Positions 3,950 to 46,743 of a stretch of DNA of 64,000 nt are shown piece by piece. The stretch is from Leptospiraceae bacterium (GTDB lineage: Bacteria; Spirochaetota; Leptospiria; Leptospirales; Leptospiraceae), in NCBI GenBank assembly GCA_022402465.1, contig JAKRSH010000040.1, forward strand, positions 62,001 through 126,000, written 5' to 3'. Position numbers and translations under genes: made by a program. Every line of letters begins with the position of its first letter. The first letter of the stretch is position 1. The notes below the pieces were generated by a model. That model saw only the letters and a program-made list of their open reading frames with translations, searched no databases and had not been told where the DNA came from.

Positions 3950-6900
3950 AACTCACAATTTCCTGTAAACGAATAATTTCCTGCATTCGCACCTAAGAGC
4001 AGATAAGGATGAGAGGTATTTCCTGCGATAGGTTTTGTGGAAACTGCTGTAAGGTTAAGACCACAGGCTCTTAGCCTTGGAATGGGAATATCCCTGACCA
4101 CATTGTTGAGCAAGGGAATAATCAAATCTCTTACTAGAGGTTGAATCACCTGGAAGATTGCATCTGGCTTAAGATTCAAAGGATTTTCTGCACCTTCCAA
4201 AACTTCTAAAACAAAGAAAAGCTCCCCCACTTGATCCGAAATGGCAATCTTGATAGATGGATTGCCCACAGAAGCTAAAATCACGGGAGAAAAATTGCAA
4301 GGTGGTATAGAACATGTAGGTAGAGCAAAGGTTCCGAGATTTAAACTAGCTAAGGATTGAATAGAAATTCGAACCGCTCCTATCGTATACGCAGTACTAG
4401 GTGAAGGTGCAGGTCTTGAGGGATCAGACTGGTAGCCACGTATTGTAATTTTTAGATCAGAAAGAAATATCTTCAATCTTGGCGATTCCAAGCTAGCATT
4501 TCCAGATAATTTTTCATACTCCAAATAGGGAGCTACAATAGGATTTACTATAAGTCGCACTTCGTCATTTTTATAAATTCCTGAAAAATTGTTCTGACCT
4601 GGAGCAAGAACAGTTAGTATAGGATCCGCTTTTAACAATGACTTCGTTAGACGAAGCAAACTAGAGCCACCTGAGTAATTATTGATACTATCAATAAATG
4701 CCTCATCTATGGTAAGATTCAAACCACCTGATCTCCAAAGCCAATAGAAGGCTTGGTTGATTGCATCTGTGTGAATTTGCAATAATAAACCTGGGTTGCT
4801 AGCCCAGCGAGATTGTAAGGAAGGAAGTAGAGTGGCGGTAGGTTTATTTAAAACGAATGAATTGCTTCCTGTAGGCGGTGGAGGAAGTGGTGATCTGCTA
4901 TATCCAAGTTGCCATGGACAACGGTTCATTCCATCTTTAATGCAAATCAAAAGAGATGCATCCGCTGCTGCTTCCAAACCAAAATTGCTACCATCATTTC
5001 GTGTTTGTGTGTTCGTGGATAGCTGAGCTTGGATCGTTAAATCTATATCTGACAAGGGTGCTGGAAGGTAATCCGGTAAGCCGATTGTAACTCCAGATTT
5101 TACCTGACCTAAGATATTATTTAAAATATCTGGTGCGATCTTTGTTGCAATATCTCTCACAACACCTTGAACAACTTTTGGTTTAATCTCGGGAAGTTTT
5201 TGTTGGATGATGTCTCCTACGATAGCAGCAACCGCACCAGACCCAACTATGGAGGAAGTAGTAATATTATCGCTCCAGATAGTAGTGAAAGGATTGCAGA
5301 ACAAAGTGTACGGAAAAGGGACTGGATTTGGTAGACTTAAACAATCTGTCGAAGAATTATAAGGACTTGGAAATGCACTTGGATTCATAGTGATCACAGC
5401 ATCTCCCGATGAGTTTGCAGTGAGAATGGTTCGTGCAAAAGTCCTTCTCTCAGTAATTGATGGAGGCGATTCATTTAGAGAAAATCGGATTCCATCCCCA
5501 TCAACTCCAGAAACCAATGATCCAAAGTATACTAAGGAGTCACCTATCAAATAATCAAAGAACTCTATATCCGTTACCTTAGCGATAATTGCCAGTCGCC
5601 CTTTAGCCTTTCTACCATAAAGAGTTAAGTCTAAATACCCGTTTTCTGGTTTGATTTCAATACGTATATTATCTATCCATGTCCCACCATCCAGAATTGA
5701 TTCATCTAATTCAAGTTCCGTGATATAAACATCTGCAAGAGCAGAATAATTTACATCAGGATAGCTTGAACTTTCAAAAATTACCCCAGACACACTAAAA
5801 CCACAAAAGGGACCAATTCGATTGAAATAGGTTAAAACTCCACCAGGCAATTTGGCTACAGGCCATGGACTGCAAGTATTTCCAGAAGAATCTGTTCCTG
5901 GATGGGTACTCGAAGTATTCGCCAAATATTGGTTTAATGATTTATTCGAAGCATCTAAAGGATCCTTTAAAGTAAACTCTCCTCTTGCAAAGGATTGGAT
6001 GATACCCGAAATAGCGTTAACACCTTCTGCTTGCATGATAGCAAGATTTACAGAGTTGGAAATTTTCTGCACTGGGTCAGAAGCTAAATTTCCATAAGTA
6101 AAATTCAAGGTTCTGTAGTAGTATTTCCCTGAATAGGATTCGATTCTATAGAAATAATTATTGATTCCATCTCTAGCACGAAGGTCCAAAGGTAATATAG
6201 AAAGATCAGAAGTAATTGAGGCAGGACACAGACCATTGCTACACAATTCAAGACCACTCGCAACACCTGAGGTGCAAGGAATGATACCAGAAGCATTTGA
6301 AACAATTCCTAGTTTACAGAGAGATAATGATTTAATTGCGGGTAGAGAGCTACTATCCAGATTTATTTGAAGACTTAAAGTTGGATGAGATAACTTACTC
6401 AAAACCAAAGCACTGTTATTGGAAAAAGTAAATTCAGAACTTCCAATTACCTTTAAAGAAGTGGGAAAAGTCGGCTCAGAAAAAAACTCCTCTACAAAAG
6501 AAATTAGATTCAAAGAAGTAGTCGTCAATGCAGAGCTTGTGATAGTTAATCTATAGGTTTTGTTCTGACCCAAAAGTGAAACTGGTTTAATCGACAGATT
6601 CAAAGGACTAGTCCATTCGAAATTTGCTCCCACTAAACTAACATTAGATGAATCTGTTACGTTCCAAAGTTGAACTGTAGAAGAGTTCAAGGTTCCTGAA
6701 TTCATAGAATGACTAAATAAAATTGTAATATTAGAATATCGATCAAAAGCAAGAGCATTAAAATCCAATCTTGCCTCTGGTCCTGTAGATCCAAATCCAG
6801 TTGGAAGGGGTACGGTTTGTACTGGGTTCGGATTTTCTTGTTCTAAGGTAGAAGGATTACTATTACTTGATGAGGAACCGCTACTAGTACCTAAAAAACT

Positions 6901-8253: not shown

Positions 8254-8727
8254 ATGAAAATCTTTCAAATTGAAAAACTGGATCAAAAGCGAATTGGCTC
8301 GCACACAACTTTTGAGAATACGTTTCACCTTGTCTTTTCTACCAAACATAGATCACGGATTCTTGATGTTAAAACTAAAATTAAGATTCGAAATTTTATC
8401 AGAGAAAAAGAGCGAGAACTTAACTTACGAATATTTATCATGAATGGCTACTTAGACCACTTACATATTCTTGTATCAATTCCAACGACATTATCTCTTT
8501 CCAGAGTATTGAATCATTTCAAGGGATATTCAGCATTTCGTTTGCAGCGGGGAGTCTTTTGGCAGAAGGGCTATTATGCAAAGGTTATTCAGGCTTCTGA
8601 AATTAGATACGTCTATCAATACATACGAAACCAATTTCACCACCATACCTGTAACCAAGGTATCATTACTGAATTGGAAGCTGAAATTTTTCAGAAAAAT
8701 AACTATCAACTTAAAAAAGCAAGTTGA
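8254..8727 (+). CDS. IS200/IS605-family Y1 (HUH) transposase, RAYT-like
   Basis: This 157-residue protein has the small Y1 HUH fold. FHLVFSTKHR (about residues 24-33) is the first strand motif. DHLHILVSIP (68-77) carries the metal-binding His-x-His pair. FWQKGYYAKV (102-111) follows, and YQYIRNQ (121-127) contains the candidate catalytic tyrosine Y123. These enzymes cut and rejoin single-stranded DNA at sites recognised through subterminal hairpins, and hairpins of the right sort lie on both sides. An AGGAG ribosome binding site lies 10 bases before the ATG. The gene looks intact. RAYT versus IS200 cannot be settled from one copy. Confidence 0.85.
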   Translation: MKIFQIEKLDQKRIGSHTTFENTFHLVFSTKHRSRILDVKTKIKIRNFIREKERELNLRIFIMNGYLDHLHILVSIPTTLSLSRVLNHFKGYSAFRLQRGVFWQKGYYAKVIQASEIRYVYQYIRNQFHHHTCNQGIITELEAEIFQKNNYQLKKAS

Positions 8728-10459: not shown

Positions 10460-11368
10460 TTAAAGTTCGATCTTGTAGCCGACTCTGTAAGTCTGACCAC
10501 CGATCACGATTGGGTATGCAGGGTAAGGAGAAAGAGCAGAAGCTCCACCAGCAGATTTCACACCAGCTTCACCCATTTTTGCAGAAAGAATGGTTTCCAA
10601 TTCAAAGAAAAGGTGTCCAGTGTCAGTAACTTGAGTCTGAGCTCCTACGATCCAGTTCAAACCAAATCCACTTACATTGAATTTTGTATTTTCTTTGTAG
10701 ATTCCTGGGTTAGTTGGGGCATCAGATAAGAAAGCTCCACCTTGACCAACTACACCTGGTAGACCAGCACGTAAAGCATCACCATCTATGGTTCCTGCGA
10801 TAGACCAACCACCTTTGAAGTAGTGAACTCCAGCACCTAAATAAAGGCCTGTAGATCTCTTTTCATTCATTAGCTTGATACCTATGTATGTAGGAATTGT
10901 TACAGCTCTATAATCCCACTCTTGTTCTAACCATTTGTAACCAGCAACTGTAGACTCAGTGTAACCACCAGATACTTTGCGAGTATAGTTACCATTGATT
11001 CTCCAGAAAAGGTTTTCGTTGCCGAAGATCCCTTCTTTTTCGTAACCAACATTTAAGTTCAAACCAACCATAGCTCCATTAGCCTTAACACCTATTAAAC
11101 CTTGAGAGGTGTTATTAAGTGCAATAAGAGTATTTTCCGCATAAATTGCTTTCTGAACTCCAGCGCCTGTTGGCTCACCCGCAGCATTAAGTTGAGGTCT
11201 AGTTCCGTTTAAACCGTCTTTTGTAATGGTTCCACCAAGACCACCAAGGTCGAATTGTGTTCCCACACCAAACATGAGGTACGAGCGAGGGCCCGTTGAT
11301 TGAGCGGACAGTCCAGTTGCAACAACCAGAGAAAGTCCTAAAAAGATTCGAGAGATCTTTTTAAACAT
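10460..11368 (-). CDS. ompL1: OmpL1 outer-membrane porin
   Basis: This 302-residue protein has a signal peptide (cleavage after LSA, about residue 22) and alternating beta-strand character to the end. It matches leptospiral OmpL1 as I remember it: a glycine-rich GTQFDLGGLGGTITKDGL block near the mature N-terminus, YTRKVSGG and LYLGAGVHYF in the middle, and the C-terminal SPYPAYPIVIGGQTYRVGY followed by a charged-aliphatic end. OmpL1 is a transmembrane beta-barrel porin of the leptospiral outer membrane with roughly this length. A strong AAGGAG lies before the ATG, and a promoter-like pair lies about 80-105 bases upstream. It heads a two-gene operon with the lipoprotein at 8988-10439. Confidence 0.93.
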   Translation of the reverse strand: MFKKISRIFLGLSLVVATGLSAQSTGPRSYLMFGVGTQFDLGGLGGTITKDGLNGTRPQLNAAGEPTGAGVQKAIYAENTLIALNNTSQGLIGVKANGAMVGLNLNVGYEKEGIFGNENLFWRINGNYTRKVSGGYTESTVAGYKWLEQEWDYRAVTIPTYIGIKLMNEKRSTGLYLGAGVHYFKGGWSIAGTIDGDALRAGLPGVVGQGGAFLSDAPTNPGIYKENTKFNVSGFGLNWIVGAQTQVTDTGHLFFELETILSAKMGEAGVKSAGGASALSPYPAYPIVIGGQTYRVGYKIEL

Positions 11369-30799: not shown

Positions 30800-31777
30800 T
30801 TATTTCCTTATCCACAAAGAATTGCAGAAGTATTGATTGCGATCAAAGTAATTTTCTAGAACTTGGAAACCATGATCTGAAGCAACTTTTTCCATATCGG
30901 AAATAGAATATTTTCTTGAGCACTCCATGTAAATAGAATCCCATTTATTGAAATTGAAAACCTTATCTATGCTCCCTATTACAACTGTACTATTTGTGTT
31001 AGCTAGAAGATAACTCTTGACCTCACCTGAAAGTGGATCATAAGAAACATGATGATCGAATTTATTTATATCAAAATTTCCATTTAACTCTCGATTGATC
31101 CTAAGTAAATGATTGAAATTAAATCTTCGTGTAATTCCTCTAGGGTCATCATAAGCAGGTAAAATGACGCTGGGTGACTTCTTCAAATCAAAACCTATGA
31201 GGAAAAAATCCTTAGGATCCAAAATATTTTTCAGATGCTCAATAAATTGATTCGTTTCTTGGTTTGAAAAATTTCCAACATTAGAACCTAAAAACAAAAC
31301 TAGTTTAGGAACGTTCTTGTACTCCGACTCCTGTTTCAAGGATTCTAATACTTGGAAATAATCGCCTACTCTTGCATCAATTTCTATTTCAGGATGATTG
31401 ATTTTGAATTTTGCCTTTAGCTCATCCAGAATATCACTGCTGATGTCTATAGGTATGTATTTCAATTGCAGTTGTGATTCTATGCAAGATTTAATAAAAA
31501 TCTCTGTTTTTATCCCATCGCCCGATCCAAGTTCTAATAATAAAATTTCATCGTATGTTAGCGAAATATGCTCTATTATTTTCTTAGAGTTTAATTCAAA
31601 AATTTCAATTTCTGCATCTGTTAGATAGTATTCAGGCATATTCATAATCTCTTGAAAGATTTTACTTCCCTCTTCATCATAAAAATACTTAGGTCTGAGG
31701 TAAGCAGGACTTGAACTTAAGCCTAAATCAGTATCAATCTGGAATTGTTCAATTGCAGTGAGAATTTGGGATTTCAT
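30800..31777 (-). CDS. egtD: L-histidine N-alpha-methyltransferase EgtD
   Basis: At 325 residues this is the length of EgtD. It trimethylates histidine to hercynine with S-adenosylmethionine, the first step in ergothioneine synthesis. Diagnostic segments: LRPKYFYDEEGSKIFQEI (EgtD signature near residue 25), PEYYLTDAE, LLELGSGDGIKTEIF (SAM site), LVLFLGSNVGNF and GFDLKKSP. The gene lies 35 bases after egtB on the same strand, so both steps are encoded together. No egtA, egtC or egtE is next to them. Confidence 0.93.
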   Translation of the reverse strand: MKSQILTAIEQFQIDTDLGLSSSPAYLRPKYFYDEEGSKIFQEIMNMPEYYLTDAEIEIFELNSKKIIEHISLTYDEILLLELGSGDGIKTEIFIKSCIESQLQLKYIPIDISSDILDELKAKFKINHPEIEIDARVGDYFQVLESLKQESEYKNVPKLVLFLGSNVGNFSNQETNQFIEHLKNILDPKDFFLIGFDLKKSPSVILPAYDDPRGITRRFNFNHLLRINRELNGNFDINKFDHHVSYDPLSGEVKSYLLANTNSTVVIGSIDKVFNFNKWDSIYMECSRKYSISDMEKVASDHGFQVLENYFDRNQYFCNSLWIRK

Positions 31778-31812
31778 TAATAATTTATTTCCTAAATTGA
31801 TTTTAAAATTCC

Positions 31813-32976
31813 TTAGTCCTTAACCAATCGGATACCATTGTATTGGTAAGCAATTTGCGGATGAAAGAAGTTTCTGTATGTACTTCGAGAATGTTCTTTA
31901 GGAGTTACAATGGATGAACCTCGCAAGACCATTTGATTGACCATAAATTTTCCATTGTATTCTCCCACTGAGCCTGCTCGTTTTTGAAATTTTGGATATG
32001 GAAGATAGGCTGACGAAGTCCATTCCCAACGCTTACCCCAAGCAAAATTCTCAGATGCCACTTCCCATTCAAACTCAGTAGGTAGCCTCAAATTTTTCCA
32101 AGATGCAAATGCTTGAGCTTCAAAATAATTGATATGCGTCAATATATCCTCACTTCGAATCTTTCGAAGTCCAGCTAGAGTATATTGGTAGTAATTAGAA
32201 TCCTTCTTCTGCCAATACATAGGCAATCCAATCTGAAGATTCTGAACAATGGACCATCCTTCATCTAACCAAAGTTCATGTCTTTTATATCCTCCATCCT
32301 CTATAAAATCTATAAACTCTTGGTTACTTACCAATTCATTGAGAATAGAAAATTCTTGCAAATAAACTTGGTGAGGTCCAAGTTCATTGTCAAAACAAAA
32401 TCCTCTTCCCTTATAACCAACATCATAATTTCCTTTGGGAATTGGAATCCAAGCCTTTGCTTGATTAGATCCATCCTCAACATAACAATCTTTCGAGTAA
32501 ATTGGTTCTAATGGATTTAGATGAAAGTTATATTTCAAATCTGTGAAAAATAATTCTTGGTGCTGCATCTCATGATGTATTCCAAGCTCTAGCAATGTTT
32601 CGATTTCTTGAAACTCTATTGGTTCAATCTTATCTTGGTTATGAAATAATTCCACTATTTGCTCATCAATAGAATTTCGATATTTATATACCTCGTCTAC
32701 GGTCGGTCTGGTCATAAGACCTCTCATTCCACGTTTCGTTCTTGCTCCAATAGAATTGTAATAACTATTGAATAAAAATCCAAATTTAGGATGAAAACTG
32801 GAATAATTTTTTATAAATTTACTTAGGATAAATTCTTCAAAGAACCAAGTTGTATGACCTAGGTGCCATTTGGGAGGACTTACAAAATCTGCTGCTTGTG
32901 GAATATAATCTTCTATAAGAAGGGGCTGCATGATTTGTTTGGTTTTATTGCGTGTTAATAGGAATTTTTCCAGCAT
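31813..32976 (-). CDS. egtB: Sulfoxide synthase EgtB (ergothioneine biosynthesis)
   Basis: The ATG at 32976 is preferred to the TTG at 33045, whose extension is not family-like. The product has an N-terminal DinB-like four-helix domain with the iron-binding WHLGHTTWFFEEF (first His) and HHEMQHQEL (next two His). A C-terminal FGE-sulfatase fold follows (KGNYDVGYKGRGFCFDNELG, LRLPTEFEWEVA, WGKRWEWTSSAY, VLRGSS). EgtB joins a thiol to hercynine with O2. Two-gene egtB/egtD sets without egtA are known and use cysteine or glutamylcysteine. Operon with egtD. Confidence 0.92.
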   Translation of the reverse strand: MLEKFLLTRNKTKQIMQPLLIEDYIPQAADFVSPPKWHLGHTTWFFEEFILSKFIKNYSSFHPKFGFLFNSYYNSIGARTKRGMRGLMTRPTVDEVYKYRNSIDEQIVELFHNQDKIEPIEFQEIETLLELGIHHEMQHQELFFTDLKYNFHLNPLEPIYSKDCYVEDGSNQAKAWIPIPKGNYDVGYKGRGFCFDNELGPHQVYLQEFSILNELVSNQEFIDFIEDGGYKRHELWLDEGWSIVQNLQIGLPMYWQKKDSNYYQYTLAGLRKIRSEDILTHINYFEAQAFASWKNLRLPTEFEWEVASENFAWGKRWEWTSSAYLPYPKFQKRAGSVGEYNGKFMVNQMVLRGSSIVTPKEHSRSTYRNFFHPQIAYQYNGIRLVKD

Positions 32977-33182
32977 AATTAAAGTCGAAAGTAAGCTCAG
33001 ATTTAGTTTCGATTTAAGAATTTTAAGATTATGATTATGATGCAATAAAATTTTATCTTTTCAATTATTTGCATGGCTTTCCTATTGATTTCATAGAGTA
33101 AAGATTAAGCATAAAATGATTTTTTTGAATTGAAATCTGTCTAAACATAGTATACTTATAAATAACTTTTTCGAGGAAATGA

Positions 33183-33467
33183 ATGAAAGCAATTTGGAAT
33201 GGTGAAATCATAGCAGAAAGCGAAGATACTATTGTAGTTGACGGAGCACATTATTTTCCAATTAACAAAGTAAAGATGAATTTTCTCAAATCATCCACCC
33301 ACAATACTACCTGTCCATATAAGGGTAAGGCATCGTATTATGATGTGGAAGTCAATGGACAAACCAATAAGAATTCCGCTTGGTATTATCCTAGCATTAA
33401 GTCTGAATCTATTAAAGAAATTGCAGGAAGAATTGCATTTTGGAATGGAGTTAAAGTAGAAAAGTAA
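33183..33467 (+). CDS. DUF427 protein
   Basis: This 94-residue single-domain protein has the complete DUF427 pattern: KAIWNGEIIAESEDTIVVDG, YFP, TTCPYKGKASYYDV, NKNSAWYYPSI, KEIAGRIAFWNGVKVE. It is a small soluble beta fold with no settled biochemical function. GAGGAA precedes the ATG. The DUF2282 bufferin gene begins 43 bases further on in the same direction, so the two may be co-transcribed, although an internal promoter is possible. Confidence 0.85.
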   Translation: MKAIWNGEIIAESEDTIVVDGAHYFPINKVKMNFLKSSTHNTTCPYKGKASYYDVEVNGQTNKNSAWYYPSIKSESIKEIAGRIAFWNGVKVEK

Positions 33468-33510: not shown

Positions 33511-33804
33511 ATGGATAAAAAGAATTTACTCGTAATGGGAACTCTGCTCGCAATGACCCAGCTAGCAAGCTACTCATCTGTTCAAGCAGCAGAACCAAAG
33601 AATGCTCAAGGAAAATGCTATGGTGTTGCAGGACCCAAGCAAGGTGACTGCAGTGGCAAAGATCCAGCTACTGGCAAGACTTGGACATGCGGTGGACAGA
33701 ATCCAACGTCTGACCTCGGCTGGAAGAAAATGACAAAAGAAGAATGCGATGCTGCTGCAAAACATAAAACAGCTAAAGCAAAAACTTTTGTAGCTAACAA
33801 CTAA
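33511..33804 (+). CDS. bufA: Bufferin-type RiPP precursor, DUF2282 (BufA)
   Basis: This 97-residue protein has a signal peptide (cleavage near VQA, residue 26). A mature part has four cysteines at 36, 47, 60 and 79 (KCYG, DCSG, TCGG, ECDA) spaced as in DUF2282 proteins. DUF2282 proteins encoded beside DUF692 enzymes are now recognised as bufferins: their Cys residues are post-translationally modified by the MNIO enzyme, and the product binds copper in the periplasm. The core cysteine spacing and the next gene fit that class. AGAGGAAC precedes the ATG. Confidence 0.85.
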   Translation: MDKKNLLVMGTLLAMTQLASYSSVQAAEPKNAQGKCYGVAGPKQGDCSGKDPATGKTWTCGGQNPTSDLGWKKMTKEECDAAAKHKTAKAKTFVANN

Positions 33805-33816
33805 TACATACAATCT

Positions 33817-34671
33817 TTGCAAACACCACGGTCTACTTTTGATTCTCAACTCATTGGCTTGTCTCTTCGAGCTGCCAATGAAAATTCTATCTTTTTAAAA
33901 GAAGTAGATTTCAGGATTATAGAAGTAATTAGTGAAAACTATAGCTACTCTAGAGGAGTAGACCGTGAAAAGTTAGTTGATCTAAGTCATGATTACCAAT
34001 TGCACCTACATGGCGTTAGTCTAAATATTGCTGGAATGGACGATTTGGATAAGAGAACTCTAAATGAGTTAAAATCTCTCCAATCAGAAACCAAGGCTTC
34101 TTACATCTCTGACCACCTTTGCTGGACTAGGCACAACCAAAGAAGCAGCTTTGACCTTTTGCCTTTTCCCTATACAAGAAAAATGATCCACCATCTCAAA
34201 GATAGAATCCACCAAGTGCAAGATGTATTAGGTTATAATTTCCTTTTAGAAAATATTTCTACTTACTTTAGATTTAAACTCGATGAAATGGATGAGATTG
34301 ATTTTCTCATTGAATTGCATGAATCCACGGGAGTAAATTTTCTTCTGGATCTCAATAATCTCTATGTTAATCAATTCAATCATGGGATTGATCCATACAA
34401 ACTTATCAACAGCCTTCCTTCATCTGCAGTAGAATTCTATCATCTGGCTGGATATTCTAACCAAGGAGATTTCTATTTCGATGCTCATGATTCTAAGGTT
34501 CCTAAGTCTGTTTGGGATCTATACCGTCTTGCCATTCAGAAATTTGGTATGCATCCAACAATTATAGAACGCGATGAAAATATTCCAAGCATACAAGAAC
34601 AAATCTCTGAAATACATTTTGCCAAGAGCCTGATTCAAGAAATAGAAAATACTACTGAGGCAATTCCTTGA
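33817..34671 (+). CDS. bufB: DUF692 multinuclear iron oxidase (BufB)
   Basis: This 284-residue TIM-barrel enzyme carries all hallmarks of the DUF692/MNIO family: IISENYS-like start (EVISENYS), LHLHGVSLNI, SDHLCWT, LLENIST, LLDLNNLYVN, VEFYHLAGY, DAHDSKVP and IIERDENIP, whose His, Asp, Asn and Glu bind two or three iron ions. It modifies cysteines of the precursor, probably to thiooxazole-like groups. The start is a TTG without a good ribosome site, 12 bases behind bufA, so translation may rely on re-initiation. The stop overlaps the next start (TTGA). Confidence 0.92.
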   Translation: MQTPRSTFDSQLIGLSLRAANENSIFLKEVDFRIIEVISENYSYSRGVDREKLVDLSHDYQLHLHGVSLNIAGMDDLDKRTLNELKSLQSETKASYISDHLCWTRHNQRSSFDLLPFPYTRKMIHHLKDRIHQVQDVLGYNFLLENISTYFRFKLDEMDEIDFLIELHESTGVNFLLDLNNLYVNQFNHGIDPYKLINSLPSSAVEFYHLAGYSNQGDFYFDAHDSKVPKSVWDLYRLAIQKFGMHPTIIERDENIPSIQEQISEIHFAKSLIQEIENTTEAIP

Positions 34672-35447
34672 TCCAAAAAGAGGATTTTGAATTTAAGGCG
34701 ATAGAAGAATTACAGAATATTTTGTATTCAGATAAATCTTCAATTGAGTATCTTCAATTCATATCTCATCCTCATCTAGATGCCATTGATGCAGTATCCT
34801 GGAAACAAGATGAAAAACTTTCCAAGAGACTCTCTTTTCTCCAATACGGCTATGGTGCTAGAACCAAAATGACATTAGAACAGTTCTTCCCTCAAACCAA
34901 AACAAGTCTTCCAGAAAAAGATTGGAACATGCTAGGATTAGAATATTCGGAATCAATTGCATCCAAATTTTCCAATATAAATGAACTCGGTTTAGATTTT
35001 CCTGAGTTCCTAGAAAATAAAAAGGTTAATTCATTAAGTATAGAATGCTCTCTAATCGAAAGATTGTGCTTTTACTCTGGAATTTCAGCTCGTGAAACTC
35101 CTATAAGTCTAGAAACCTTCAGCATGCTTGATGATGAAAGTCAATTTAAATTAAGAAATGATCTTCAAGTATACAAAGGTAAACTAGATATAGACCTTGA
35201 TGTATGGCAGTTAAGAAATTCAATACATTACTATTTAATCTATAGAGATATTTTTTCCTATCCCCAAGCACCAATCTTTATCAAAAAATTAGAAACTAAA
35301 ATCTTTGAGATACTACATTTCATTTCAACAAAAACAAACCAATCTGCGAATCTTTTATTACTCCAAGAAAATTTTGAACAAGAAGAAATTTCACAAGCTT
35401 TGTATTTTTGCTTACAGAATCATTTCTTGGTGGCTAAACAAAATTAA
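34668..35447 (+). CDS. bufC: Partner protein of the bufferin cluster (BufC-like, divergent DUF2063)
   Basis: This 259-residue mainly helical soluble protein starts at a TTG that overlaps the bufB stop. Its position as third gene, its size and its helical DUF2063-like N-terminal half (LSFLQYGYGARTKMTLEQFF and onward) point to the recognition partner that delivers the precursor to the MNIO. The sequence is more diverged than the first two genes. The C-terminal part (DLDVWQLRNSIHYYLIYRDI) resembles a PqqD/winged-helix-like region and is not clear. No DoxX-like fourth gene follows; the only one in the window is at 25033. Confidence 0.6.
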   Translation: MIQKEDFEFKAIEELQNILYSDKSSIEYLQFISHPHLDAIDAVSWKQDEKLSKRLSFLQYGYGARTKMTLEQFFPQTKTSLPEKDWNMLGLEYSESIASKFSNINELGLDFPEFLENKKVNSLSIECSLIERLCFYSGISARETPISLETFSMLDDESQFKLRNDLQVYKGKLDIDLDVWQLRNSIHYYLIYRDIFSYPQAPIFIKKLETKIFEILHFISTKTNQSANLLLLQENFEQEEISQALYFCLQNHFLVAKQN

Positions 35448-40836: not shown

Positions 40837-41823
40837 TTATTTAGATTCACTTAAAGACTCATTGTATAGATCAATAAATTCTTTTCCTGAGAATGGATTC
40901 TGACTTGATACAAGATTTCGATCTTTTACAGCATGGGGTCTACCTGGAAGAAGACTTTTTTCATAATTCAATCCTGACTCTTCTAAGAGAGATGCGATTT
41001 TTCGCACAGAAGGAGTGCCCTTCATTACAAAAGTCTCGATGAACCATTCTTCGATTCCAGTCACAGAGTTCACTCTGTATCCATTGAAAGGGTTCGATTC
41101 TTTGGGATAAGTCGTTAAGATGGCAGGAGCATGGCAGATGAGACCAATAGATTTATTCTTAGTATGAAACTTAGAGATCAGATCCAAGACTTTATCATTT
41201 CCTAAGAGGTCTACCATCAAGCCTTGCCCACCTGGTATTATTATTCCTGAATATTCTAATTCTGGTTTCACCAAACTATCAATCGATTTAGGGTTTAAGT
41301 ATTTTATATTCAATTTAGTAAAATCAATAGCCTCTTGTTGAATCTTTTCATTATCCCAATATTTTGATTTCAAACTCTCAGGATCTATTGGTGCAGACTT
41401 TCCATCCAATGTTGCAAAATCTATTTCATAGCCTTGTTCCTTTAGATTTTTATAGGGAATGTAAAATTCATTCAAGAAAATGCCCGTAGGATATTTTCTT
41501 TCCCCACCGAGAATAAGAGTATCGGCAGAGCTCATAAAAATAAGAATCTTTCTTGGGGAAGCATCAATTCCTAAAACAGAAAAATAAATTAGAACTGTGA
41601 TTATTGAAAAACTAAAATTTATTCTGGATCTTATTTTAATATTTTTAATTTTTTTAATATTTTTCATTAATTTATTGATATTTATTTTAATAATATTCAT
41701 TATTTTATTGATTTTTGTTTTATTAATATTCAATAATTTATTTCTTAGCAATTTATTTTTAAAATCATAGAAATTTATTCTTTGATTTATTTTTCCGAAA
41801 AGAGTGATTTTGTTAAGCTCCAT
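40837..41823 (-). CDS. Membrane-anchored or exported DJ-1/PfpI protein with Asn/Ile/Lys N-terminus
   Basis: The core (about residues 90-320) is a DJ-1/PfpI domain: KILIFMSS, FYIPYKNLKEQGYEIDFATLDG, GIIIPGGQG, and the nucleophile elbow IGLICHAPA with Cys. A hydrophobic helix (FSFSIITVLIYFSVLG, about residues 70-85) precedes it, as signal or anchor. The first 67 residues are a low-complexity run of Asn, Ile, Lys from AT-repeat DNA (41640-41760) and may not be translated: Met53 at 41667 would give a normal signal peptide. It lies last in a run with Crp/Fnr and CPBP genes. Confidence 0.8.
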   Translation of the reverse strand: MELNKITLFGKINQRINFYDFKNKLLRNKLLNINKTKINKIMNIIKININKLMKNIKKIKNIKIRSRINFSFSIITVLIYFSVLGIDASPRKILIFMSSADTLILGGERKYPTGIFLNEFYIPYKNLKEQGYEIDFATLDGKSAPIDPESLKSKYWDNEKIQQEAIDFTKLNIKYLNPKSIDSLVKPELEYSGIIIPGGQGLMVDLLGNDKVLDLISKFHTKNKSIGLICHAPAILTTYPKESNPFNGYRVNSVTGIEEWFIETFVMKGTPSVRKIASLLEESGLNYEKSLLPGRPHAVKDRNLVSSQNPFSGKEFIDLYNESLSESK

Positions 41824-44717: not shown

Positions 44718-45275
44718 ATGAATAATAAATTACAATCTCTTTTTAAATCCCTCCTATTACTTTTTTGGATTTTAAATTGTTCTACTTTAAGTATAATCGA
44801 TCCCAAAAAACCTCTAGATGCACAAGTTCCCAAGGAAAAGGCAGTGTATTTTATCCAGACTAATTTTAGCATTGAAAATCAAAAAATAAAATCTGTAACA
44901 TTGGAATTTTTCGATATTTTAAAAAGCACAACAAATGGCAATGTTTTGAAATTATCTGCTTCTAAAGACATTGCAAATAATAGCCTAACTGAGTGTTATC
45001 TTTTTTCTGGTGATAAAACAGTTTATGCCTTATATACGGCTGAAATAGCAACAGATAAGGGTCTTATTCAAACTCAATTACCCAAAGAAAATAAATGGTT
45101 TATTGAATACAAAGGTTCCAAAAGCCCACTATATGCTGGGTCTTTAAGTTATCTTAATAATTCGTTAAATATATCAGACTCTGGTTTTAAAGAGTGCAAA
45201 GCAGATTTAGCAGCTAAATATCCTAACTTAGATTTCTCAAATTCGGAAGAACTTCTAAAGAAAAAATCAAAGTAA
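44718..45275 (+). CDS. Lipoprotein of unknown function
   Basis: This 185-residue exported protein has a hydrophobic N-terminus ending LLFWILNC (Cys 21). The mature region is mixed alpha/beta (VYFIQTNFSIENQKIKSV, ALYTAEIATDKGLI, WFIEYKGSKSPLYAG) with no motif I know. AAAGGAAAC lies ahead of the ATG. The stop codon is 17 bases before an inverted repeat that leads to the Cys-repeat protein gene. Confidence 0.7.
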   Translation: MNNKLQSLFKSLLLLFWILNCSTLSIIDPKKPLDAQVPKEKAVYFIQTNFSIENQKIKSVTLEFFDILKSTTNGNVLKLSASKDIANNSLTECYLFSGDKTVYALYTAEIATDKGLIQTQLPKENKWFIEYKGSKSPLYAGSLSYLNNSLNISDSGFKECKADLAAKYPNLDFSNSEELLKKKSK

Positions 45276-45292
45276 TTGAAATCTGACTCTGA

Positions 45293-45361
45293 TATTTTCC
45301 AGAAAGACGAATAATTTGGGCCTAAACAAAGGTTTCATACCATACTTTATTCTGGAAAATA
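45293..45361 (+). repeat. 12-bp perfect inverted repeat with 45-base loop
   Basis: TATTTTCCAGAA (45293-45304) and TTCTGGAAAATA (45350-45361) are exact complements. The loop itself contains short pairings (GGT-TTCAT-ACC, CCT-AAACAA-AGG). It sits between a lipoprotein gene and the Cys-repeat gene, whose start is 71 bases further. It may be a leader RNA structure or an operator. Confidence 0.6.
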
Positions 45362-45432
45362 GACAGGTTTCTAACCAAAATTTTCTTGCAACAAAATCAG
45401 ATTCGTGCAGTCTAAACAACAGAGGAATCTTT

Positions 45433-45654
45433 ATGAAAAAATCTTTTGCAATTTTATCATTAACTACAGCAATCTTATTCACTGCAGGACTATCTGCTTC
45501 AAGCTGTCCAGGTAAAGAGAAGCGATCAGGAATTTGCCCAGGCAAAGAAAATAGAACTCTTACTTGTCCAGGAAAAGAAAATTTAAGTGGAACATTTTGT
45601 CCTGGTAAAGAAAACCTATCAGGTTCACTGCTCTGCCCAGGAAGCAAAGAATAG
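45433..45654 (+). CDS. 73-residue exported protein with five Cys-Pro-Gly repeats
   Basis: An AGAGGAA lies 9 bases before the ATG at 45433; a longer frame from 45316 is not protein-like. The first 24 residues form a signal peptide (MKKSFAILSLTTAILFTAGL...). The mature part is five units beginning CPGK(E): CPGKEKRSGI, CPGKENRTLT, CPGKENLSGTF, CPGKENLSGSLL, CPGSKE. Cys lie at 25, 35, 45, 56 and 68, with spacings 10, 10, 11 and 12. The first Cys could also be a lipidation site (SASSC). Repeats suggest metal or thiol chemistry, a modified peptide or a surface ligand; none is shown. Codon choice differs among units, so this is not a recent duplication. A strong terminator follows. Confidence 0.8.
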   Translation: MKKSFAILSLTTAILFTAGLSASSCPGKEKRSGICPGKENRTLTCPGKENLSGTFCPGKENLSGSLLCPGSKE

Positions 45655-45685
45655 ACTTATTTTAGTCATTAGAATTCTTATTGAG

Positions 45686-45714
45686 AAACCCCAAGCCTCC
45701 CTTGGGGTTTTTTT
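45686..45714 (+). terminator. Strong terminator after the Cys-repeat gene
   Basis: The stem AAACCCCAAG/CTTGGGGTTT with a CCTCC loop runs into a T tract. It also serves the convergent gene on the other strand. Confidence 0.85.
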
Positions 45715-45747: not shown

Positions 45748-46743
45748 TTATTTCTTTGTTGTTTCTCTTTGTAAATTATCAATAAACTCTACAACTTCAT
45801 TCTCAATTTTTTCCTTATCAGACTTTACAAACTCACTCATGAGAACATGGGCTCCATATTCAATTTTAGTTAGCTTAGATTTAGGGTTAGGTTGAAATTG
45901 AGAAAATACATCTAACATAGCAGGGACACTAGCCGTTGGATCTCGCTCTTCTTCACTTTTCTGGTAGTACAATAAATGAATAGGAGATCTTACCATTGAA
46001 TAGGTCTTTGGCTTAGCAATGAAATTTCGAAGATCTATTACATTGTAAACAGCCGATAGATATTGCTCTGTGTACCAATATTTTTCATAATCATCTGAGA
46101 TCATTGCTTGTCGAACAGGATCTTTAGTAGAAAGCTTTCCTGAGTTCCTCACTTTCCCATTGATCAATAATCCTAGATAATAGCCTCCTGGATATTCCAA
46201 GATCTTTGCCTTAGAATTTGCAAATTCATAAAAAGGTGAAACCAAAATCATTGCATGGATCATTTCTGGATTCTCAGCAGCAAGGTAGGTCGCAATTAAA
46301 CCACCCATACTCGTTCCAATTACAATTACTTTTTCACCCAAGGCTTGAACTTCTCTGAGTGCTATTTGGTTTTCTTGAAGATATTCTTCATACTTCGTAT
46401 CTCGGTGCTCTTCCTTATTCGTTCCATGACCTGGTTGACGAATATAGTACGTATTGTACTTATATTTTTTACCAATTTTATCAACAACAAACTCGCCTTC
46501 CTTTCGGCAGGCACCAAAACCATGAATATAAATGAGTGCATATTTTGTTTTGCCAGGAGAGTAACGAGTTAGCTTTTCTTCACAACCTGGTCGAACATTC
46601 TTCCGTTTACTTTCTTGCAATTTACTTTGGTAGTATTCGTCAAAGGAAGCTTTGGAAGTGTAGGTCTCCTTTGGAAATCGATAGTCCAAAGAAGAACATG
46701 CTAGTACAAAAAGTAATACCAAGAAGGCAGTGTATTTTTTCAT
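45748..46743 (-). CDS. Alpha/beta-hydrolase lipoprotein
   Basis: This 331-residue exported protein has lipobox VLAC (Cys 16). The hydrolase core shows an oxyanion strand YIHGFGACRKEG, the nucleophile elbow IGTSMGGLIA (GxSxG), and near the C-terminus GAHVLMSEFVKSD with the catalytic His. The Asp is probably in the ERDPTASVP loop. It should be a membrane-attached esterase, lipase or acylglycerol hydrolase. The pseudogene at 19760-20024 was of a similar kind (signal plus hydrolase tail). Substrate unknown. Confidence 0.85.
   Translation of the reverse strand: MKKYTAFLVLLFVLACSSLDYRFPKETYTSKASFDEYYQSKLQESKRKNVRPGCEEKLTRYSPGKTKYALIYIHGFGACRKEGEFVVDKIGKKYKYNTYYIRQPGHGTNKEEHRDTKYEEYLQENQIALREVQALGEKVIVIGTSMGGLIATYLAAENPEMIHAMILVSPFYEFANSKAKILEYPGGYYLGLLINGKVRNSGKLSTKDPVRQAMISDDYEKYWYTEQYLSAVYNVIDLRNFIAKPKTYSMVRSPIHLLYYQKSEEERDPTASVPAMLDVFSQFQPNPKSKLTKIEYGAHVLMSEFVKSDKEKIENEVVEFIDNLQRETTKK

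Follow-up and report, generated by a model that had tools for sequence, protein, structure and literature searches.

Several described groups of small cysteine-containing peptides can be set beside the locus analyzed here. Metallothioneins are cytosolic and carry CxC/CxxC clusters. MNIO precursors are typically Sec-exported peptides with Cys motifs, one class of which is built from the 5-mer repeat EGKCG; sizeable shares of the Buf1 and Buf2 precursors are encoded apart from MNIO genes, and about 16% of Buf2 precursors bear lipoprotein signals (PMC12452194). The MNIO system FonBC tolerates Pro at no site and requires a small residue after Cys (PMC13097082). Regarding exported proteins of leptospires, the lipobox is unusually permissive (PMC4758666), and Ser is the commonest residue at position -1 of their lipoproteins (PMC2063517).

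The 64,000-nucleotide stretch of Leptospiraceae DNA analyzed here (the window) contains, at positions 45433 to 45654 of the + strand, a frame of 73 residues with the translation MKKSFAILSLTTAILFTAGLSASSCPGKEKRSGICPGKENRTLTCPGKENLSGTFCPGKENLSGSLLCPGSKE. It starts with MKKSFAILSLTTAILFTAGLSASS, followed by CPGKE-KRSGI, CPGKE-NRTLT, CPGKE-NLSGTF, CPGKE-NLSGSLL, and CPGSKE. The sequence-only reading had described five CPGKE repeats after a signal peptide; four exact copies are indeed present (45505 to 45519, 45535 to 45549, 45565 to 45579, and 45598 to 45612; frame translation and repeat alignment), and the fifth (45634 to 45651; frame translation) is a degenerate CPGSKE with an inserted Ser. The Cys residues occupy positions 25, 35, 45, 56, and 68, i.e., the spacings of 10, 10, 11, and 12 reported earlier recur in the translated frame. 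A DNA pattern covering two repeats occurs twice in the window and in none of 100 dinucleotide shuffles, and a pattern search for CPG...CPG...CP in the 3.99-Mb genome returned no second occurrence. Among the four CPGKE copies, 4 of 15 nucleotide columns vary, all of them third positions (in the Cys, Pro, Gly, and Glu codons), whereas the linkers have diverged; under random placement, four variable columns would all fall on the five third positions with a chance of about 0.4% (C(5,4)/C(15,4), calculated by hand). Because the variable codon columns are exclusively third positions, the pentapeptide looks selected. The gene would have been built through tandem duplication of a unit of approximately 30 nucleotides, and the resemblance of linkers 3 and 4 looks like drift after duplication. 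This resemblance also bears on the very improbable case of a multi-core precursor, in which CPGKE would serve as recognition or cleavage site and the linkers KRSGI, NRTLT, NLSGTF, and NLSGSLL would be the released products: the alternation of a conserved pentapeptide with variable linkers would fit, but two linkers are alike in the manner expected from drift, and no processing enzyme adjoins the gene. Elsewhere in the window, an AT-rich tandem array with a 33-bp unit (41631 to 41742) lies in the 5' end of a DJ-1/PfpI gene and gives rise to a KIN-rich N-terminal extension, and a single REP/IS200-type Y1 transposase-like open reading frame was recognized by eye at 8254 to 8727.

The frame is credible as a genuine, if unusual, small gene, judging from its sequence features. 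Its own ribosome site, proposed previously, was borne out: the Shine-Dalgarno sequence AGAGGA (45421 to 45426, + strand), identified from the sequence and the anti-SD duplex energy, lies 6 nucleotides 5' of the ATG and forms an anti-SD duplex of -5.9 kcal/mol, matching in strength that of the bufferin-type precursor gene described below and surpassing most of the 29 other window genes. The same holds for the strong terminator, which extends from 45683 to 45714 on the + strand and consists of the hairpin AAACCCCAAG-CCTCC-CTTGGGGTTT and a T-run; it starts 28 nucleotides 3' of the stop codon, and none of 200 shuffles was equally stable (z = -4.33). The codon score of 0.237 corresponds to the median of the real genes in the window (0.248 ± 0.078). 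As the antisense frame shares the third positions, their variability alone cannot fix the strand. A gene on the - strand at 45267 to 45647, encoding SLPGQ repeats, was therefore weighed as well; it is open over 126 codons, and its codon score over the repeats (0.41) is higher than that of the peptide frame and than those of all 150 antisense controls. Nevertheless, this frame starts with TTG and has no ribosome site (duplex energy of 0.1 versus -5.9 kcal/mol), its coding score drops to 0.11 over the remaining length outside the repeats, and the terminator T-run is on the + strand, opposite to it; for these reasons it was rejected as an extremely remote case. It also has neither an NCBIfam domain nor a signal peptide, and a nonsynonymous change (SFPGQ) is found within its repeat. 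The leader of the peptide gene had been described as structured, which holds for one element only, TATTTTCCAGAA ... TTCTGGAAAATA (45293 to 45361), a perfect inverted repeat of 12 bp; the entire leader folds only slightly more stably than shuffled sequences (z = -1.32). The arms of the repeat (45293 to 45304 and 45350 to 45361) enclose a 45-nucleotide loop and lie 70 to 140 nucleotides 5' of the ATG; an inverted repeat of this length was reached in 0.05% of mononucleotide shuffles, making chance unlikely. It may represent an operator pair or a hairpin, or it may belong to the terminal part of the lipoprotein gene upstream. No second copy was found in the genome, leaving a shared regulatory repeat unsupported. 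Two TTCNNGAA dyads are included in the repeat.

The N-terminal segment MKKSFAILSLTTAILFTAGLSASS (45433 to 45504) was read by eye from the translation as a Sec signal peptide, and the peptide is predicted to be Sec-exported. Cleavage could occur after A22 (A22/S23, signal peptidase I) or before C25 (ASS-C, signal peptidase II); ASS-C obeys the -1 rule, and the signal peptidase I site appears equally good by eye. The peptide might accordingly be a small lipoprotein in which signal peptidase II cuts before C25 and the lipidated cysteine anchors the chain, with four free Cys residues at the membrane. The match of ASS-C to a loose lipobox, the permissiveness of the leptospiral lipobox with its frequent Ser at -1, and the share of Buf2 precursors with lipoprotein signals speak in favor of this reading, which we nonetheless regard as unlikely. 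Specifically, the four small or polar residues SASS separate the hydrophobic core from C25 and resemble the c-region of a signal peptidase I substrate, TAGLSA|SS is similar by eye to ATGLSA|QS of the protein encoded at 10460 to 11368, and C25 is a member of a full CPGKE repeat, so that lipidation is not needed to explain its sequence. With the small lipoproteins of leptospires the peptide thus shares a signal peptide, a Cys, and Ser at -1, but it differs in the extended SASS before the Cys and in the placement of this Cys inside a repeat. A structure model of the peptide showed nothing confident past the signal helix (mean pLDDT of 46, a weak result since it is based on a single sequence), in line with a mature part that probably lacks a fixed fold.

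Among the described families, the precursors of the Buf_EGKCG/oxazolin type (HvfA, FonA; captophorins) are similar in being small and of simple sequence, with a Sec signal and with repeated Cys pentapeptides of high Gly, Lys, and Glu content. The peptide has, like them, several Cys motifs in a short chain behind a Sec signal peptide (judged by eye). Unlike in captophorins, however, the motif is CPGKE, with Pro after Cys, instead of EGKCG with its Lys-Cys-Gly, the repeats are 10 to 12 residues apart, and no sequence relationship is apparent. Adjacent MNIO and DUF2063 genes, as in captophorin loci, were not found; the closest MNIO operon lies upstream, its end 10 kb away, and includes a precursor of its own. 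The bufferins BufA1 and BufA2 are likewise exported Cys peptides, and a BufA2-like protein together with a BufB-like MNIO is encoded in the same genome, 12 kb away, but the peptide has no sequence similarity to them, no common leader, and another Cys pattern; profile searches gave no match to DUF2282 (PF10048) or the BufA2 model NF050166. Metallothioneins are also short, Cys-containing, and expected to have little structure, whereas the CPGKE-repeat peptide is predicted to be exported and has isolated Cys residues; neither a metallothionein profile match nor CxC/CxxC clusters were found in it. With the EGKCG motif, adjacency to an MNIO gene, and bufferin profile matches all lacking, the peptide was assigned to no family; at most it works like captophorins or bufferins.

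The bufferin-type operon, absent from the sequence-only reading although relevant to the modified precursor proposed there, comprises three genes on the + strand. A BufA2-like precursor of 97 residues with four Cys, starting with CYGVAGPKQGDC, is encoded at 33511 to 33804 (BufA2 model, E of 7e-7, 29 bits versus a cut-off of 60), a BufB-like MNIO at 33817 to 34671 (PF05114, E of 2.5e-85; BufB model, 277 bits versus a cut-off of 310), and a weakly DUF2063-like partner protein at 34668 to 35447 (23 bits versus a cut-off of 27); across the operon (33511 to 35447), PF05114 alone passes the NCBIfam and Pfam cut-offs. The precursor is a candidate related system for the CPGKE-repeat peptide. At a second bufferin-type locus on contig C28 (stretch L061, C28:78000-88000; positions 4541 to 5500 of it), the precursor is intact and the MNIO and partner genes are broken by stops; this precursor may be a substrate, in trans, of the window MNIO. 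Similar proteins of 93 to 94 residues starting with MKAIWNG (DUF427-like by eye) are encoded near both loci (window, 33183 to 33467; L061, 2911 to 3192). Adjoining the operon of the window, a histidine methyltransferase (PF10017) and an FGE-sulfatase/DinB protein (30800 to 33045) form an ergothioneine-type pair (EgtD, EgtB). Owing to the operon 12 kb upstream, MNIO modification of the peptide in trans becomes possible: the peptide would be a second substrate of the MNIO and partner encoded 10 to 12 kb upstream, and the conversion of each of its Cys residues to 5-thiooxazole or a similar group, ahead of Sec transport, would yield a captophorin-like copper chelator. The intact precursor-MNIO-DUF2063-like operon, the same design in the EGKCG-repeat precursors, the frequent remoteness of Buf1 and Buf2 precursors from MNIO genes, and the closeness in composition (C, G, K, E) of CPGKE to EGKCG would agree with this. 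Within the family, an MNIO was found in none of the other genomes compared, and its co-occurrence with the peptide is confined to this single genome. We consider such a modification improbable, as each Cys of the peptide precedes Pro, a residue to which the characterized FonBC is intolerant. Moreover, the gene is not adjacent to the operon, comparison by eye revealed no leader element common to it and bufA, the MGxLLAMTQxA leader of the two BufA paralogues is absent from the peptide, and none of the MNIO genes detected in the order has a CPGKE peptide next to it (1.5-kb flanks, upstream side on the + strand). The idea was retained because specificity differs among other MNIOs. Slightly more doubtful is the wider proposal of a new class of exported Cys-repeat RiPP or metallophore with the core CPGKE, matured in trans by the bufferin-type MNIO or by another enzyme accepting Pro after Cys.

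Searches for relatives agreed with the earlier statement that no family of this description is known, as there was no significant match in Pfam, NCBIfam, PHROGs, or PDB; a defensin match in Pfam (0.011) was below the Pfam cut-off, covered only 13 residues, and was dismissed as chance level. Rfam gave only sub-threshold chance matches. No relatives were found in phages, plasmids, or viral contigs, and of two weak tblastn matches in Aeromonas plasmids, the one examined is located within a 1.1-kb hypothetical gene with no apparent relation. A pattern search of 393 genomes of the phylum likewise found none, the lone other match (G201) being out of frame. Matches in genomes of the order at E < 1, the first few of which were inspected as genes, look compositional and in many cases contain stops; the best of them lies within an array of CPGQSRR-like repeats. 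In genome_contigs, searched by peptide words and by a repeat pattern (two CPGK words, the first TGT-coded and followed by Lys, Asn, Asp, Glu, or a similar residue), no exported CPGKE-repeat protein was present among the 24 stretches matched by the pattern. Two further CPGKE-coding 15-mers of the genome itself belong to an unrelated 440-residue protein and to a chance frame, respectively. Neither the peptide nor the synteny was found in the seven other genomes of the family, the collections containing only one genome of the genus. The CPGKE-repeat peptide is thus an orphan within the collections searched, and as there is no homologue, there is no cross-species conservation to draw on. The lack of relatives would also suit a young or decaying orphan gene under no selected function, with the repeats as a by-product of minisatellite growth. 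Such an origin seems improbable to us given that codon variation within CPGKE is entirely synonymous, in contrast to the diverged linkers, and that the ribosome site and terminator are intact.

The sequence-only reading had offered a metal-binding peptide, a modified peptide precursor, and a surface lipopeptide as alternatives, all of which are weighed here as candidates. The reading that we prefer, with a probability of roughly 0.4, is that the gene encodes a thiol peptide that is disordered, leaves the cytoplasm by the Sec route, and serves as a soft-metal or thiol buffer. The frame, the repeats, the synonymous bias, the ribosome site, and the terminator are seen directly; export is deduced here from the sequence and the absence of a fold from the model, while metal binding is a guess, as is the assumption that the Cys residues remain unmodified. 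The mature product would be a Sec-exported chain of about 50 residues without a fixed fold, carrying five Cys, one in each CPGKE or CPGSKE unit. Outside the inner membrane, this flexible chain would use its thiols as ligands to capture and buffer soft metal ions, Cu(I) in the first place and perhaps Zn, Cd, or Hg, with the charged, Gly- and Pro-containing linkers keeping it soluble and extended. A buffer of this kind is the simplest reading of a predicted product that is short, soluble, and exported and has five thiols, and it is favored because the genome invests in exported peptides of the copper-buffering type, as seen from the intact bufferin-type operon and the second precursor in the decayed one. 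Among the neighbors of the peptide gene, the ergothioneine-type pair and an oxidoreductase judged DsbA-like by eye were counted in its favor. Counted against it were the isolation of the Cys residues, which are 10 to 12 residues apart without metallothionein-type CxC/CxxC clusters, the lack of a metal-regulated neighbor in the same operon, and the missing homologues, which leave no conservation between species. The immediate neighbors are a lipoprotein-like gene upstream (44718 to 45275, + strand) and a convergent alpha/beta hydrolase gene (45748 to 46743, - strand); relatives of the hydrolase occur in two other genera, and the genome itself has a paralogue, but none of these loci contains any other neighbor from the window or a CPGKE-type peptide.

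If the peptide neither binds metal nor is modified by an MNIO, it would be a small orphan whose interest is limited. Modification by the MNIO would demonstrate wider substrate rules for these enzymes, with Pro after Cys, and repeat precursors encoded in trans. If it binds metal, it would represent a minimal, repeat-built, easily synthesized periplasmic thiol buffer in a spirochete that also has bufferin-type genes.
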